From positions 1 through 31,714 of the IMG/VR virus record IMGVR_UViG_3300030450_000934: a stretch of DNA of 31,714 bases; one strand, written 5' to 3'. The notes beneath the pieces were generated by a model. The model saw only the letters and a list, made by a program, of their open reading frames with translations. It made no database searches and was not told the DNA's origin. Shown piece after piece: positions 10,567 to 19,059 of this stretch. How positions within the stretch are numbered: position 1 is the first letter of the stretch; each line of letters begins with the position of its first letter. The translations under genes were made by a program, and so were the position numbers. This stretch comes from a virus.

Positions 10567-11264
10567 TATTACTAATTGACGCAGATAGTTTAGTTTTTGC
10601 AAGTTGTTATTCTGGAACAGAAGAAAAATACTTCAAGGAAATAGAAGATTCAATTGCAAAGTTTGATGAACAATATATGGAAATTGTGAATCGTTTAGAA
10701 GAAGAATTTAATATACAAAAGGTTATTACTTTCAATGGTAGTCGTGGTAATTTTAGAAAAAAAATTAATCCTACATATAAAGCTAATAGAAAAAAAGCAG
10801 AATTGCCTCCTTTGTTATTTGAAATGCATCAGTATGTCAAAGACCATTACGATAGTGTTTATGGTTATGGTATTGAAACTGATGATTTAGTTGCAAGATA
10901 TTGGCACAACCTACAAGAAGAAGTAGGCAGAGAAAATGTAATGATAGTGAGCATTGACAAAGACTACAAACAATTCCCAGCATTAATTTATAATTATCAT
11001 TATAACCATAAATGTATTTATGACATATCAGAAGAAACTGCATTACATAATTTTTATTGCCAAATGATTGAGGGAGATAGTGCAGACAATGTAAACTACT
11101 TTAAAGGAAAAGGAAAAGCATTTGCTAAAAAACATTACAAAGATTGTAAAACAAAATATCAGTATACTAAAAAATTGTTTGAATTGTTCAGAGAAAAATA
11201 TAAAAGTAAAGCACGAGAAAAATATATAGAGTGCTATAATTTATTAAAATTAAAAACACAATGA
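10563..11264 (+). CDS. 5'-3' exonuclease / flap nuclease (FEN, T5/T4 RNase H type)
   Basis: This 233-residue protein carries the acidic metal-binding set of phage 5' nucleases. LLIDADSL holds D6 and D8, FRKKINPTYKANR (64-76) matches the helical-arch substrate motif, and IETDDLVA holds E105, D107 and D108. SIDKDYKQF holds D132 and D134, and IEGDSADNV holds D172 and D175. It removes RNA primers or 5' flaps during replication, or resects DNA for recombination. Length is slightly short for the family because the C-terminal helix-hairpin region is reduced. It overlaps the upstream membrane gene and the DnaA-like gene by four bases each. Confidence 0.85.
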   Translation: MILLIDADSLVFASCYSGTEEKYFKEIEDSIAKFDEQYMEIVNRLEEEFNIQKVITFNGSRGNFRKKINPTYKANRKKAELPPLLFEMHQYVKDHYDSVYGYGIETDDLVARYWHNLQEEVGRENVMIVSIDKDYKQFPALIYNYHYNHKCIYDISEETALHNFYCQMIEGDSADNVNYFKGKGKAFAKKHYKDCKTKYQYTKKLFELFREKYKSKAREKYIECYNLLKLKTQ

Positions 11265-11749
11265 AAGATTTAAAACCGATTGATGTAGCTAAAAAACTGA
11301 AAGACATTACGAAAATTAATGTCTTTGATGATACAAGGAAAAGGGAAGTAATTGAAATAAGAATGTTACTTTGTTATTTGTTAAGACAAAAACTAGGAAT
11401 GCGATGGGTAAATATTGCTAAATTTTTTAGTAATAATGGTAAAAAAATGACACACGCAACTGCAATACATTGCTACAAAATGTATCCTGTATATAAAAAA
11501 CATAATAACAAACTAACAGAAATAGAAAGAATGTTCTCTTGGAAAAGTGATTTGAATTATGATGAAATAGATAGGATTCATTTTTTAGAAAGTCAAGTTA
11601 AGAGTTTACAAGAAAAACTAGATACACCATTAATTCAATTACTACATAAAATACCAAAAAATAGATATAATGAAACCTATGAAAGATTATGTACCTTTGT
11701 TAAAAGTTGGGAGTGGAAAAGTAGAAAAGAAAAAACTGCCCTCAACTGA
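11261..11749 (+). CDS. DnaA domain IV-like DNA-binding protein
   Basis: The 162-residue protein has, at residues about 26-80, a stretch resembling the DnaA C-terminal DNA-binding domain: RKREVIEIRMLLCYLLRQKL, then WVNIAKFFSNNGKKMTHATA, then HCYK. In DnaA the corresponding parts are the basic loop, a helix-turn-helix and the DHSTV signature; here THATAIH takes its place. There is no AAA+ ATPase domain. The rest (85-162) is helical and basic. Such a protein could mark a phage origin or repress host initiation. It sits between the exonuclease and the modification cassette. The domain match is by motif only. Confidence 0.6.
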   Translation: MKDLKPIDVAKKLKDITKINVFDDTRKREVIEIRMLLCYLLRQKLGMRWVNIAKFFSNNGKKMTHATAIHCYKMYPVYKKHNNKLTEIERMFSWKSDLNYDEIDRIHFLESQVKSLQEKLDTPLIQLLHKIPKNRYNETYERLCTFVKSWEWKSRKEKTALN

Positions 11750-11948
11750 TTTAAAAGAAAGGTCATTAAATAAATTAGACGCAAAAATTTATTTTACAAA
11801 ATTAAAACTAAATAATATTGTAAATCAAATTAATGATTGGCAAAACATAACAGAACTACAGAAAGAGCATTTAGTTATAAGATACGAAGCAACTGATTCC
11901 GAACTGCAAGTCTTAGAATATATGTATAAACAAACAAAAGGAATATGA
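11670..11948 (+). CDS. Hypothetical helical protein overlapping the DnaA-like gene
   Basis: The 92-residue frame overlaps the end of the DnaA-like gene by 80 bases if the first ATG is used; an ATG at 11679 shortens this only slightly. The product has a basic N-terminal part (VGSGKVEKKKLPSTDLKE) and a helical remainder (FTKLKLNNIVNQINDWQNIT and on). It overlaps the ParB-like gene by four bases (ATGA), which supports translation. I do not recognise it. The long overlap is unusual for this genome, so the true start may differ. Confidence 0.45.
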   Translation: MKPMKDYVPLLKVGSGKVEKKKLPSTDLKERSLNKLDAKIYFTKLKLNNIVNQINDWQNITELQKEHLVIRYEATDSELQVLEYMYKQTKGI

Positions 11949-12514
11949 TTAGTAAAAAATTAAAAGTAGGGCAAATAAAAGTAAACCCTAAAAACCCAAG
12001 ATTAATTAAAGACACAAAGTTCAAAAAATTAGTTCAAAGTATTAAGGACTTTCCAGAAATGTTACAATATAGACCGATAGTTATTAATGAAGATAATTAT
12101 ATACTTGGTGGGAATATGAGATACAAAGCAGCAGTTGATGCTGGATTGAAAGAAGTTCACACAATGAAAGTCAATATAAGTAAAAAGAAACAAGAAGAAT
12201 TTATAATCAAAGACAATGCTAGTTTTGGAGATTGGGATTGGGATATACTTGCGAACATTTGGGATAATCAAAAACTTAATGATTGGGGAATAGATGTTTG
12301 GCAACCAGAACAAGAAATTGATTACTCTGTTTTAGATGACATTGATGTTGAAGAAGAAATAAACACAATGTATGAGCAAACAAAAAAATCAATTATACTT
12401 GAATATCCTGCAAAAGATTTTGAGCCTATCAAAAAACTGTATGATGATTTAAAAAATAAGGGAGTTAATTTGCAAGAGTTGTTTTATAAAGCTATGCAAA
12501 ATTATGATTCCTAA
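11945..12514 (+). CDS. ParB/sulfiredoxin-like nuclease-domain protein
   Basis: This 189-residue protein begins with a ParB-like domain: KLKVGQIKVNPKNPRLIKDT (NPR at 17-19), then QYRPIVINEDNYILGGNMRY and KAA, matching the ParB box with GGNMRYKA in place of GERRLRA. The strand-helix stretch IIKDNASFGDWDWDILANIW follows. In many phages this domain is fused to, or next to, an adenine- or cytosine-specific DNA methyltransferase; here no methyltransferase domain follows. The C-terminal 45 residues (SIILEYPAKDFEPIKKLYDD) form a small extra domain. It opens the 11945-14759 cassette and overlaps the glycosyltransferase by 11 bases. It may bind, nick or recognise DNA for modification. Confidence 0.7.
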   Translation: MISKKLKVGQIKVNPKNPRLIKDTKFKKLVQSIKDFPEMLQYRPIVINEDNYILGGNMRYKAAVDAGLKEVHTMKVNISKKKQEEFIIKDNASFGDWDWDILANIWDNQKLNDWGIDVWQPEQEIDYSVLDDIDVEEEINTMYEQTKKSIILEYPAKDFEPIKKLYDDLKNKGVNLQELFYKAMQNYDS

Positions 12515-13226
12515 AATTATACATCAAATTTATTTTGACCTATACGGAAAAAAAGTAGAGGACATTCCTGTTTATAATAAAAGTATAAATGAAATTAAAT
12601 TTCATAATCCAGATTACGAACATAAACTATGGAATGAAAAATCTTCAGCGAAACTTATAAAGAAAAAAATACCAAAGTATTATGACTTTTATATGAATAT
12701 GAGGTATGACGTTCAACGCATTGACTTTATGCGTTTTGTTGTTTTATATTTGTATGGTGGATTTTATGTTGATTTAGATTTAATTAATATTAAAAGTCTT
12801 GACCCTTTGCGTAAGAAAAAATTTGTAGGTTATACTTTAAAAAAATTTATACCGAATCATAAAGAGATAATACAAAATGATTTTTTTGGTTGTGAAAAAA
12901 ATTTTAAATTATTTGATATACTAATGAGATTGTGCAGACCGAATTATGAAATCAAAGCGAACAATAAAATATATGATGATTGGAAAGGCAGATTTGTTTT
13001 GCAAACCACAGGTCCTAGATATGTATCAAAAATATTTAAACTGGTGTTGCCTAAATATAAACCAGAGAATGATTTAATATTTACAAAGTGGCGTAATGAT
13101 AATTGGGTTAGATTTAATAGAGATGATTTTTACTTTGAAAATTATGTAACTGGTGGATGGTTTCAAAACACTAGCAAAAAATTAAAAAACAATGATAACT
13201 TTTATTTGAATGAAGATGAAATATAG
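12504..13226 (+). CDS. GT32-type glycosyltransferase (DXD sugar-binding motif)
   Basis: This 240-residue protein has the GT32/Gly_transf_sug plan of OCH1- and capsule-type enzymes. It opens with IPKIIHQIYFDLYG, then NPDYEHKLWNE (35-45) and DVQRIDFMRFVVLYLYGG (69-86). YVDLDL follows with the metal/nucleotide-sugar DXD at D90-D92. GT32 enzymes transfer a hexose from a nucleotide sugar. It lies between a ParB-like gene and a TET-associated-type glycosyltransferase and overlaps both (11 and 17 bases). Glycosylation of a modified DNA base, or extension of a first sugar, is therefore more likely than cell-surface glycosylation. Substrate and sugar cannot be read from sequence. Confidence 0.8.
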   Translation: MIPKIIHQIYFDLYGKKVEDIPVYNKSINEIKFHNPDYEHKLWNEKSSAKLIKKKIPKYYDFYMNMRYDVQRIDFMRFVVLYLYGGFYVDLDLINIKSLDPLRKKKFVGYTLKKFIPNHKEIIQNDFFGCEKNFKLFDILMRLCRPNYEIKANNKIYDDWKGRFVLQTTGPRYVSKIFKLVLPKYKPENDLIFTKWRNDNWVRFNRDDFYFENYVTGGWFQNTSKKLKNNDNFYLNEDEI

Positions 13227-13971
13227 AATAGCAATACCCTCTTACAATAGGTCTGAAGCTATAAGAAAAAGAACATTAAATTATTTGATTGATGTTTGTA
13301 ATATTAAAACAAACATAATAGATGTATTTGTAGCAAACGATAAACAATATGAGGAATATAAATATTTAGAGGAGTTAGGTATTAATGTGATTGTCGGTGT
13401 TCGTTGGTTACATAAACAAAGAAACTACATACAACAATATTATGATGAGGGAGAATTTATTGTTCAGTTTGATGATGATGTTGATGCACTTAAAATAAAA
13501 AAAGGAAAAAAAACAGAAGTATTAAAAAGTTTAGACCAAATAATTCGTATTGGTTTCAATGAATGTTTAAAACATAAAACAAAATTATTCGGTGTCGGTG
13601 CAGTTGATAATCATTTTTTTATGGATACAAAAATATCTACTAATTTAAAACTTTGCGTTGGTGCTTGTTTTGGAATTATAATAGACCACGATAAAACTTT
13701 GTCATTGACTTTAGAGGAAAAAGAAGATTACGAAAGAACGATAAGACACTTTTTAAAATTTGGTAAGGTAGTTAGATTAAATATGATAGCAACTAAAACT
13801 ACATATTACAAAGGTGCAGGAGGTATGGTTGATGACAGGACTGAACAAGAACAAAATAAATCTGCGTTATATTTATGTGAAAAATATCCAAACTTGATAA
13901 GTATAAATCCACACAGGAAAAGTAAATATTTAGAATTACGATTAAATAGTAGAGCAAAATGGAAAAACTAA
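13210..13971 (+). CDS. TET-associated-type glycosyltransferase (TAGT-like, GT-A fold)
   Basis: The 253-residue protein starts with YRIAIPSYNRSEAIRKRTL (PSYNR at 10-14), has VFVANDKQYEEYK and VRWLHKQRNYIQQYYDEGEF (with R71 N72), and carries the GT-A metal motif VQFDDDVDAL (D88-D90, D92). A C-terminal part contains GAGGMVDDRTEQEQNKSA. This combination (PSYNR, RN before the acceptor strand, DDD) is how I recognise the glycosyltransferases found with TET/JBP dioxygenases in phages, which were proposed to add sugars to hydroxymethylated bases. The next gene is such a dioxygenase and overlaps by 13 bases. The assignment rests on motif order and context; the sugar is unknown. Confidence 0.7.
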   Translation: MKMKYRIAIPSYNRSEAIRKRTLNYLIDVCNIKTNIIDVFVANDKQYEEYKYLEELGINVIVGVRWLHKQRNYIQQYYDEGEFIVQFDDDVDALKIKKGKKTEVLKSLDQIIRIGFNECLKHKTKLFGVGAVDNHFFMDTKISTNLKLCVGACFGIIIDHDKTLSLTLEEKEDYERTIRHFLKFGKVVRLNMIATKTTYYKGAGGMVDDRTEQEQNKSALYLCEKYPNLISINPHRKSKYLELRLNSRAKWKN

Positions 13972-14759
13972 AACTAATAAAACACGAACACGATATCAAA
14001 ATAGGAAAGCGATGTGAGTTTAGACCACCCACTATCACTGAAAGTTGTTTATTAGAATATGAGGGAAAGATAATTGGCTTTTACCTGACAGACTTACCTG
14101 ATAAATTAAAACAATACATCACAATAGCAAACAAAGAGTTCTTAAGTAAGAATGTTCCAAAGTCATTACTTGAAAGGTCTGATGTATATGAGATGCAAAG
14201 AAAGTTAGGCATAAGCAGGAAAGAAGCGAAAGCTAGAAACACAGTACAAATGAGTACAATACTTGGTGCCGTATTAGCAAAGCCACATTTAAGGAGACCC
14301 TACAATTCTGTGTCAGCAGTTCACACAAACACAAAGGCAAAGACATTTATAAAAGCTATGCTACTATCTTGTTTAGAATGTGAAAAGCTGATAGAAAAAT
14401 ATATGCCCGAACAATATAAATCACAAAAGAAACAAATAGAAGAAACTACATTACCTAAATATAGGTTCGGTAATTTATTTACAAGTAGTATATCTAATTT
14501 TAATATCGCTGCTTCTTTTCATCAAGATAGAGGAAACTTAAAAAACACAGTCAATGCAATATTAACCAAAAGGAAAAGCACAGAGGGTGGTGCGTTGTGC
14601 GTTCCTGACTTTAATCATACATTTGAACAGGCAGATAATAGTTTGCTTGTATATCCAGCTTGGTTTAATATTCACGGAGTAACTAAAATAATAAAACACA
14701 ATGAGGAGGGTTACAGAAATAGTTTAATTTTCTACCCACTCGCAGGATTTGATAAATAA
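13959..14759 (+). CDS. TET/JBP-type 2-oxoglutarate- and Fe(II)-dependent DNA base dioxygenase
   Basis: This 266-residue protein carries the double-stranded beta-helix motifs of the TET/JBP group. NIAASFHQDRGNLKNTVNA supplies the iron ligands H188 and D190, followed by EGGALCVPDF (209-218). WFNIHGVTKI supplies the third ligand H239, and GYRNSLIFYPLAG supplies R253, the 2-oxoglutarate anchor 14 residues later. Members oxidise the methyl group of 5-methylcytosine or thymine in DNA. The first 165 residues, helical and basic, include NTVQMSTILGAVLAKPHLRR, which is a likely DNA-contact region. It ends two bases before the small terminase gene, so modification would come just before packaging. No DNA methyltransferase is visible. 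Which base it acts on is open. Confidence 0.8.
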   Translation: MEKLKLIKHEHDIKIGKRCEFRPPTITESCLLEYEGKIIGFYLTDLPDKLKQYITIANKEFLSKNVPKSLLERSDVYEMQRKLGISRKEAKARNTVQMSTILGAVLAKPHLRRPYNSVSAVHTNTKAKTFIKAMLLSCLECEKLIEKYMPEQYKSQKKQIEETTLPKYRFGNLFTSSISNFNIAASFHQDRGNLKNTVNAILTKRKSTEGGALCVPDFNHTFEQADNSLLVYPAWFNIHGVTKIIKHNEEGYRNSLIFYPLAGFDK

Positions 14760-14761
14760 TT

Positions 14762-15121
14762 ATGGACAAAAGTAGACACATAAAAAAGGAGAGTATTTTA
14801 AAAGCACTTGAACAAAGTTTAGGTATAGTTACTGTAGCTTGTAAGAAAGCTGATGTACCTAGAAGCACATTCTACAAATGGTTAAATGAAGATATTGAGT
14901 TTGCTAAAAAAGTTAAGGACATTGAAAACATTGCACTTGACTTTGCAGAAAGCCAACTACATAAACAAATAGGAGATGGTATTCCTAGTTCAACTATGTT
15001 CTATTTAAAAACAAAAGGAAAGAGCAGAGGATATATAGAAAGACAAGAGATAACAGGTGCTGATGGTATGCCTAATAACTTTCAAATAGAAATAATTGAC
15101 AAAACAGAAGATACAGACTAA
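14762..15121 (+). CDS. terS: Terminase small subunit (HTH type)
   Basis: The 119-residue protein has an N-terminal helix-turn-helix (KALEQSLGIVTVACKKADVP then RSTFYKWLNEDIEFAKKV, about residues 13-50). A helical oligomerisation part follows, ending in the stretch SSTMFYLKTKGKSRGYIERQ and EITGADGMP, which is typical of small terminases of Gram-negative phages. It recognises the phage DNA end or pac site and delivers it to the large subunit. It overlaps the large subunit gene by 26 bases and directly follows the TET-like gene, so the modification and packaging genes are probably transcribed together. Confidence 0.85.
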   Translation: MDKSRHIKKESILKALEQSLGIVTVACKKADVPRSTFYKWLNEDIEFAKKVKDIENIALDFAESQLHKQIGDGIPSSTMFYLKTKGKSRGYIERQEITGADGMPNNFQIEIIDKTEDTD

Positions 15122-16259
15122 TGTCGTTTACAAGCATCTTGTTGCAAGCGATAAAAAAATTGTAGTTGAGCAGGGAGGAACTCGTTCAGGAAAAACATAC
15201 AATATACTTCTTTGGTTAATATTTGAATATTGCACTAAACACCAAAAGAAAATAATAACAATATGCCGTAAGACTTTCCCTAGTTTACGAGCAACAGTAT
15301 TAAGGGATTTCTTTGATATACTAAAAAGCAATAATATATATAGCGAAACTTTTCACAATAAGTCAAACTCTGAATATCATTTGTTTGGCAACTTGGTTGA
15401 GTTCATCAGTTTAGATATGCCACAAAAAATTAGAGGTAGGAAAAGAAACCTTTTATTTGTAAACGAAGCAAACGAATTATATTTTGAAGATTGGCAACAA
15501 CTTGTATTTAGAACGCAAGAAAGAATTGTTATTGACTTTAATCCTTCAGATGAATATCATTGGATATATGACAAAGTAATAACTAGAGATGATTGCGACT
15601 TTTTTAAAACAACTTACCTTGATAATCCTTTTATTGAAGATGCTATAAAATTAGAAATAGAAAGATTAAAAGAAACAGACGAACAATATTGGCAAATTTA
15701 CGGACTAGGAGAGAGGTCTAGGAGCCGTTCTACGATATTTACTTTTAGTGAGTGTAACCTTATACCCGATGAAGCAAAATTAATTGCTTACGGAATGGAT
15801 TTTGGATACACTAACGACCCTACTACTTTGGTGTCTGTTTACACAAATGATTACAAACTTTATGTAAAGGAACATTTATACAGAACACAAATGACAACAA
15901 GAGATATACATAATTTTTTAATAAAAGAAAACCTAGAGAAAAGTCCTATCTATGCTGATAGTGCTGAACCTAGATTGATAACAGAATTAAGAACAATGGG
16001 GCATAATATATTCCCAAGTATGAAAGGTAGGGATTCAGTCAATGCAGGTATAGACTTATTAAAAAGATATAAGATACATATTCTTTCAACTTGTGATAAT
16101 GCTATAAGAGAATTTAGAAACTACAAATGGAATGAAGATAAATCAGGTAGGCTTACTAATATTCCTATTGACAAAGACAATCATATTATTGACCCTTGCC
16201 GTTACGCAACTTATAGTATATTATCAAGACCAAACTTCGGTAAATATACAATACAATAA
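15096..16259 (+). CDS. terL: Terminase large subunit (Terminase_3 / PBSX type)
   Basis: This 387-residue protein is the DNA-packaging motor. The ATPase half shows QGGTRSGKTYN (26-36, Walker A with K33 T34), CRKTFPSLRAT, and LLFVNEANEL (119-128, Walker B with E124). The nuclease half shows YGMDFGYTNDPTT with D235, IYADSAEPRLI with D288, and NHIIDPCRYATYSIL with D366, the RNase H-like metal ligands. Length is normal to slightly short. The start at 15096 lies inside the small subunit gene; the ATG at 15121 is in another frame. A terminator follows immediately. PBSX-like terminases fit either cos or headful packaging, so the mode is not settled. Confidence 0.95.
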   Translation: MTKQKIQTNVVYKHLVASDKKIVVEQGGTRSGKTYNILLWLIFEYCTKHQKKIITICRKTFPSLRATVLRDFFDILKSNNIYSETFHNKSNSEYHLFGNLVEFISLDMPQKIRGRKRNLLFVNEANELYFEDWQQLVFRTQERIVIDFNPSDEYHWIYDKVITRDDCDFFKTTYLDNPFIEDAIKLEIERLKETDEQYWQIYGLGERSRSRSTIFTFSECNLIPDEAKLIAYGMDFGYTNDPTTLVSVYTNDYKLYVKEHLYRTQMTTRDIHNFLIKENLEKSPIYADSAEPRLITELRTMGHNIFPSMKGRDSVNAGIDLLKRYKIHILSTCDNAIREFRNYKWNEDKSGRLTNIPIDKDNHIIDPCRYATYSILSRPNFGKYTIQ

Positions 16260-18445: not shown

Positions 18446-18748
18446 ATGGAACTAAACGAGAACACACAAGTAAAACTAGATTTGAAAACTATTGCAATAA
18501 TTGTAGCTGGAGCATTATCAGTTGCTTCAACTTATTTTACATTGCAATCTAAAATTGATGATTTGACTAATAAAATAGAAAACTTTACAGGAGATGAGTT
18601 TGTACAAAAGATGGAGTTTCAACTAAAAGACGAATTAGTTAGAAGCACAATCATACAAATAGAAAAATCTACCGAGGGTTTAAAAGAAGATATTTTAGAT
18701 AATAAGGAACGAATCAAACAAGTAGAAGATAAAGTATATAAAAGATGA
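18446..18748 (+). CDS. Membrane-anchored coiled-coil protein
   Basis: The 100-residue product has a membrane helix at about 14-32 (KTIAIIVAGALSVASTYFTL), then a long charged helix to the end (SKIDDLTNKIENFTGDEFVQ and on, ending IKQVEDKVYKR) with heptad spacing. The layout suits an i-spanin-like or holin-associated (XhlA-like) protein, or a membrane-located virion injection protein. It overlaps the secreted thioredoxin-like gene by four bases, so the two may act at the envelope together. It is not near the main lysis genes. Function remains uncertain. Confidence 0.55.
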   Translation: MELNENTQVKLDLKTIAIIVAGALSVASTYFTLQSKIDDLTNKIENFTGDEFVQKMEFQLKDELVRSTIIQIEKSTEGLKEDILDNKERIKQVEDKVYKR

Positions 18749-19059
18749 GAAAATTAATTTTAATTATATTTTTATTTTTTAGTTATACAAGTTATAGCCA
18801 ACAAATAAGAGTAGTACAAATAAACGCAAAGTGGAATCAAAAGAACACATTATATCTTGATAATTTAAGAGGTTGCAAATATGATTACGCTTGGTTAGAA
18901 GACCAAGGTGCTAAACTTAAAAATCAAATTAAATCTGTTCCTGTTATATTAATAGAAAAAGACGGAAAAATTGTAAGAACTTTTCAAGCAGGATTAGATT
19001 TTAAATTAGCTTTAAAAAAAGAAGATATACAAGAAATTATTTACGAACTTAAAGAATGA
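18745..19059 (+). CDS. Secreted thioredoxin-like protein lacking the CxxC active site
   Basis: The 104-residue protein starts with a clear signal peptide (MRKLILIIFLFFSYTSYSQQ, predicted cleavage near residue 19) and would act in the periplasm. The rest has thioredoxin-like order: VVQINAKWNQKN, a helix, YAWLEDQ, then IKSVPVILIEKDGKIV, where SVPV supplies the cis-proline element. The site usually occupied by WCxxC reads W-N-Q-K-N, so both catalytic cysteines are asparagine. I recognise related phage proteins with the same NAKWN stretch, so the loss looks conserved. It cannot do redox chemistry; a chaperone or binding role is more likely. It overlaps the next tail gene. Confidence 0.6.
   Translation: MRKLILIIFLFFSYTSYSQQIRVVQINAKWNQKNTLYLDNLRGCKYDYAWLEDQGAKLKNQIKSVPVILIEKDGKIVRTFQAGLDFKLALKKEDIQEIIYELKE

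Follow-up and report, generated by a model that had tools for sequence, protein, structure and literature searches.

The window, i.e., the whole stretch of 31,714 nucleotides that was analysed (IMG/VR virus record IMGVR_UViG_3300030450_000934), derives from a small marine virus of bacteria with a gene set that probably oxidises and then sugar-coats bases of its own DNA. It contains a cassette of genes for a ParB-like protein, two glycosyltransferases and a TET/JBP dioxygenase with invariant iron-site residues, which lies in a conserved neighbourhood, has swappable decorating enzymes and comes without a methyltransferase. We assume, with a probability of roughly 60%, that this cassette is a methyltransferase-free hypermodification system in which TET hydroxylates thymine and a sugar cap follows, giving a base-J-like phage DNA. 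As judged by sequence, it is a variant of the ParB-TET type already predicted in actinobacteriophages. We infer that the TET/JBP enzyme would hydroxylate the methyl group of thymine in the phage DNA to 5-hydroxymethyluracil and that the TAGT-like enzyme would put a sugar on the hydroxyl group of this base, which the GT32-type enzyme would probably extend, or to which it would add another one. The ParB-like protein would act jointly with TET and probably serve to target it to the DNA or to load it there, and the adjoining terminase would package the modified DNA, which would then resist the nucleases of the host.

The cassette and its proteins

The earlier note had described four overlapping genes in a row, and coordinates, order and overlaps all turned out to be correct (Table 1); consecutive genes overlap by 11, 17, and 13 bases between positions 11945 and 14759 of the + strand. 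The terminase genes directly downstream of TET are conserved neighbours. The genes in the slot between ParB and TET have a low G+C content of 25-27% (25.3% in the GT32 gene), compared to 33% in the TET gene. A small protein encoded at 11261-11749, which matches only a DnaA C-terminal DNA-binding domain and this weakly (26.1 bits, below the cut-off), is kept 5' of ParB in many relatives. In the relatives G001 and G002, two adjoining small genes that belong to the structural region in the window (18446-19059) are located some 15 kb from there, close to the opposite end, which suggests that this pair was relocated between the window and these two genomes.

Table 1. Genes of the cassette and the adjoining terminase genes, with positions in the window.
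Feature	Position	Strand	Evidence
ParB_N-domain protein, 189 aa	11945-12514	+	Pfam ParB_N 29.1 bits (cut-off 26.3)
GT32-type glycosyltransferase	12504-13226	+	Pfam Gly_transf_sug (PF04488) 59.7 bits (cut-off 23); DXD motif D90-L-D92
TAGT-like (TET-associated) glycosyltransferase	13210-13971	+	phrog_842 7e-14; TAGT (PF20691) 23.5 bits (cut-off 27.5); DDD motif at residue 88
Single-domain TET/JBP Fe(II)/2-oxoglutarate dioxygenase, 266 aa	13959-14759	+	Pfam Tet_JBP (PF12851) 40.1 bits (cut-off 34.9)
Terminase small subunit	14762-15121	+	phrog_4044 8e-8; adjoins TET in relatives too
Terminase large subunit, conserved downstream neighbour	15096-16259	+	Pfam Terminase_3 and Terminase_3C

The predicted iron site of the dioxygenase consists of H188 (within H188-Q-D190), D190, and H239, with R253 for 2-oxoglutarate. 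All four residues are located where they had been claimed to be and are invariant in the homologs, in a family alignment of 35 rows as well as in a wider set, counting the rows that cover each column. The AlphaFold2 model of the protein (pLDDT 93) has a predicted TET/JBP fold, for which Foldseek gave the TET2-DNA structure as the top match (E 2.7e-11), followed by CcTet, CMD1, and NgTet1; the single TET protein sequence matched nothing among the solved structures, and TET2 was reached by profile and fold searches. The proposed logic, a thymine hydroxylase plus a glycosyltransferase leading to glycosylated 5-hydroxymethyluracil, is that of kinetoplastid JBP and base J. However, Tet_JBP is the only significant Pfam match in the window TET, with no J-binding or SWI2/SNF2 domain, ParB is a separate protein, the organisms are unrelated and the product is a predicted one. 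The family phrog_6059 is named “queuine tRNA-ribosyltransferase,” yet its top match in the window is the TET/JBP protein, and many phage TETs in GenBank/RefSeq (NC_020847, mycobacteriophage records) are labelled “queuine tRNA-ribosyltransferase” or “SNF2 DNA repair protein”; these labels are likely propagated misannotations.

For the ParB-like protein the AlphaFold2 model (pLDDT 85) predicts a ParB fold as well. Foldseek found ParB of M. xanthus and C. crescentus, with a CTP analogue or CDP bound, as the best matches; the N domains of ParB/Noc structures were matched, and sulfiredoxins more weakly. The similarity is that of the N domain, as the full ParB/RepB/Spo0J architecture is absent (TIGR00180, 18.7 bits vs. 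a cut-off of 58.45). ParB is possibly a targeting or loading factor for TET. A more far-reaching version, which we regard as doubtful, would be that ParB is obligate and loads or targets TET on the DNA via a ParB-like nucleotide switch, that both together make 5-hydroxymethyluracil in situ in virion DNA, that most phage TETs work in this way, with ParB and on thymine, and that the swappable slot yields products that carry one or two sugars, a phosphate or a methyl group, or that are sulfated.

Partner genes of phage TETs and the oxidised base

Viral contigs were scanned with four TET queries, the scans being non-random, all with near copies, and covering several TET clades. Of the 193 TET loci in the first survey, 101 had ParB nearby and 63 a C5-methyltransferase, but none had both. 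In a larger set that was assigned with profile models, 249 loci had ParB only, 67 had a C5-methyltransferase only, one had both (L114), and 39 had neither, the latter often being cut by contig ends. ParB without a C5-methyltransferase beside TET is a widespread rule in phages, and ParB is the standard partner of the TET lineage of the window. A lone ParB, which had seemed odd, is thus usual for this lineage, with ParB near TET in those 249 loci, and the lack of a methyltransferase, which had been called unusual, is the rule among ParB-TET phages. When whole records were searched with PF00145, all eight C5-type contigs and the isolate Melnitz were positive, with the gene adjoining TET, compared to one of 25 contigs of the window clade (L082, a short protein 6 kb away) and six of 50 further ParB-type contigs of a second set. 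According to these counts, ParB-type phages can carry a C5-methyltransferase yet need none; a separate one is carried by L114 and L082 as well as by five contigs from the A2 scan. The protein of L082 (L082:1867-2499), which is a ParB-TAGT-TET phage, is divergent and C5-methyltransferase-like, comprises 210 aa with a PPC motif and matches PF00145 only weakly (29 bits).

The cytosine hypermodification systems of phages with C5-methyltransferase and TET (type of Burke et al., 2021; Methylophilales phage Melnitz) share with the window the TET/JBP enzyme and, optionally, TAGT, a kinase and further decorating genes. However, they have the C5-methyltransferase directly 5' of TET (Melnitz; 66 of 71 loci in one scan), whereas in the window ParB occupies the upstream position, a methyltransferase is missing, and TET falls on the opposite side of the tree. 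In this tree, which carries a program warning of long branches, the window clade and the actinobacteriophage TETs are separated from the C5-linked TETs by a branch with a support of 100/99. The residue at D190+3, which is N in the window (N193) and in the actinobacteriophage clades and D in the C5-linked TETs, seemed to be diagnostic for specificity, but was dropped as a substrate marker, since D is also found in the ParB-linked TETs of a third clade (73/73) and the residue therefore tracks the clade and not the partner.

Clusters of actinobacteriophages such as that of Tonitrus, with ParB, TET, aGPT-PPlase2, and a 5-hmU DNA kinase, are predicted as possible thymidine hypermodification systems (PMC11955845), and the cluster of Gordonia phage CaiB was described as base-modification genes (PMC9302106). 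Like the window, these clusters (Rhodococcus phage Tonitrus, Gordonia phage CaiB, cluster B mycobacteriophages) have ParB adjoining or close to the 5' side of TET and before the terminase genes, lack PF00145 wherever a complete genome was tested, and share the window's side of the TET tree. They differ in having enzymes of the 5hmU-kinase type (PF18751) and ADDT, or TAGT after TET, whereas the window has GT32 and TAGT between ParB and TET and its cassette contains no kinase, ADDT or aGPT-PPlase; their thymidine chemistry is likewise only predicted (PMC11955845). A gene of the ADDT family (PF18724; confirmed in examples) is present in 63 of the 249 ParB-only vs. none of the 67 C5-only loci (Fisher p 6e-8, which is optimistic because the loci are related). 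None was found among the surveyed loci of the window's own TET clade, ADDT being present in the sister clades. ADDT is the transferase family in this predicted thymidine pathway. P-loop kinases were considered as a thymine marker, too, but are not indicative, since they occur with both partner types (100 of 249 ParB-type vs. 25 of 67 C5-type loci, p 0.78). The sister clades and the lack of any methyl source suggest thymine as the target of TET, and ordinary thymine as the target would explain the missing DNA methyltransferase. Direct oxidation of thymine is, by gene neighbourhood and phylogeny, the best supported of the three explanations that had been offered for the cassette.

What counts against thymine is that the known phage TET activity is on 5-methylcytosine, as Burke et al. 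2021, cited in PMC12730594, reportedly found. TET could instead oxidise 5-methylcytosine made by the host, with the glycosyltransferases capping 5-hydroxymethylcytosine. The best-characterised activity of TET enzymes is that on 5-methylcytosine, which is also the substrate of TET2, NgTet1, and CMD1, the nearest ones among the solved structures, and the TAGT-like protein in the slot matches the PHROG of the T4-type HMC glycosyltransferase (phrog_842, “beta-glucosyl-HMC-alpha-glucosyltransferase”). Terminase and portal of the window point to Flavobacteriia phages, and one Flavobacteriaceae genome that carries a ParB-TAGT-TET-terminase prophage also has a PF00145 gene. However, the host would be an undependable source: PF00145 is absent from 56 of 87 genomes in a genus-wide tally of Prochlorococcus, which is infected by MED4-184, a phage of the window's TET clade, and this weakens the explanation as far as the host genus of this clade phage is concerned. 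Moreover, fresh copies of the phage DNA would need fast methylation, and the association between ADDT and ParB-type loci would have no explanation. A supply by the host is therefore unlikely. In the Flavobacteriaceae prophage, L284:9477-10256 (-) encodes a protein with a perfect motif I of C5-methyltransferases (DLFCGAGG) at its start, followed by a methyltransferase of the MTS type; it may be a remnant or a fusion.

The slot between ParB and TET

The genes between ParB and TET were classified in 94 loci, with Pfam run on examples, and decorating genes sit at this position in 93 of them. The slot is filled by a TAGT-type gene alone in 72 loci, by GT32 and TAGT in eight including the window, by a P-loop kinase in place of a glycosyltransferase in six (L053, L058, L059, L061, L083, L099), by TAGT and a sulfotransferase in three, by FkbM in one, by another glycosyltransferase-like gene with or without TAGT in three, and by nothing in one. 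In L103, L104, and L105 TAGT and TET are separated by the sulfotransferase gene, whose L103 copy matches Sulfotransfer_2; a sulfated sugar on DNA would be unusual. Although the TAGT-like protein of the window itself stays below the TAGT cut-off, slot relatives of the same BLAST cluster exceed it (L002 with 53 bits, L122 with 103 bits). It looks as if decorating enzymes were exchanged on a constant ParB-TET core. L053 has the kinase in the slot while its TET is still 79% identical to that of the window; L001 shares ParB and TET at 95% and TAGT at 66%, with GT32 missing; and in L021 GT32, TAGT, and TET are 89, 91, and 85% identical, but ParB only 64% and TerS 56%. The Prochlorococcus phages MED4-184, P-HS2, and MED4-117 have the same order of ParB, slot gene, TET, and terminase, with TETs 44% identical to that of the window, but their slot contains an FkbM methyltransferase instead of glycosyltransferases. 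Such swapping would be expected if each decorating enzyme acts on one hydroxymethyl handle, and the exchange is also as expected from an arms race with host nucleases. The suggestion of the earlier note that two glycosyltransferases make a disaccharide fits the presence of TAGT in all nine GT32 loci of the first survey; this count, however, is not significant, because about 89% of the classified ParB loci have TAGT.

The glycosyltransferases might also act on a polysaccharide of the host surface or on protein, with TET acting alone. Phage glycosyltransferases often change surface glycans, members of GT32 generally use sugar acceptors, and a ParB-TET pair with no decorating gene between the two does exist (L116:7417-8744). 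Against this stand the nearly constant place of the slot between ParB and TET in overlapping genes, its alternation with P-loop kinase, FkbM, and sulfotransferase genes, and the very name of TAGT, which comes from the link to TET, so that we consider an acceptor other than DNA improbable.

Absence of a methyltransferase and implications

That no methyltransferase is visible and that the genome is near-complete, both stated before, was confirmed. PF00145 has no match anywhere in the window, and none of its real genes contains a PPC- or DPPY-type methyltransferase motif. The profile is also absent from the nearest relatives G001 (TET 95% identical), G002 (89%), and G003 (TET 42%), the latter being circular with a terminal repeat of 99 bases, and from all 16 complete isolate genomes with other TETs when whole records were searched. 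The profile search that had been proposed for the genome and its relatives was therefore negative for the window and G001 to G003, with some other ParB-type phages carrying a C5-methyltransferase. The first and the last open frame of the window have a tail-fibre-like repeat in common, which shows that the contig breaks inside one tail-fibre-like gene. Since both ends share this gene and the circular relative and the complete isolates lack a C5-methyltransferase as well, the lack is not due to an assembly gap.

It is thus very improbable that TET oxidises 5-methylcytosine made by a methyltransferase of the phage itself that lies off the contig or is too divergent to be detected. The contig is not closed, and divergent methyltransferases such as that of L082 exist; however, a search with the L082 protein gave nothing in the window at E 1, and the findings on the junction, which the earlier note had considered as a hiding place, speak against this explanation. 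Least probable of all is another methylated base such as N6-methyladenine, for although the TET relative CcTet was crystallised with 6mA DNA (7w5p) and some phages have ParB_N joined to a DNA methyltransferase in one protein (phrog_498), the window contains no N6/N4 methyltransferase motif and a 6mA product should not leave a stable hydroxymethyl handle to be glycosylated.

If the thymine reading is true, many phage TET enzymes would act on thymine without a methyltransferase, and the neighbour of TET, either ParB or a C5-methyltransferase, would be a simple rule to predict which base is modified. Cultured relatives, namely phages of Prochlorococcus, Pelagibacter, and Mycobacterium, allow direct tests. 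The cassette would then be the counterpart of base J in bacterial viruses.
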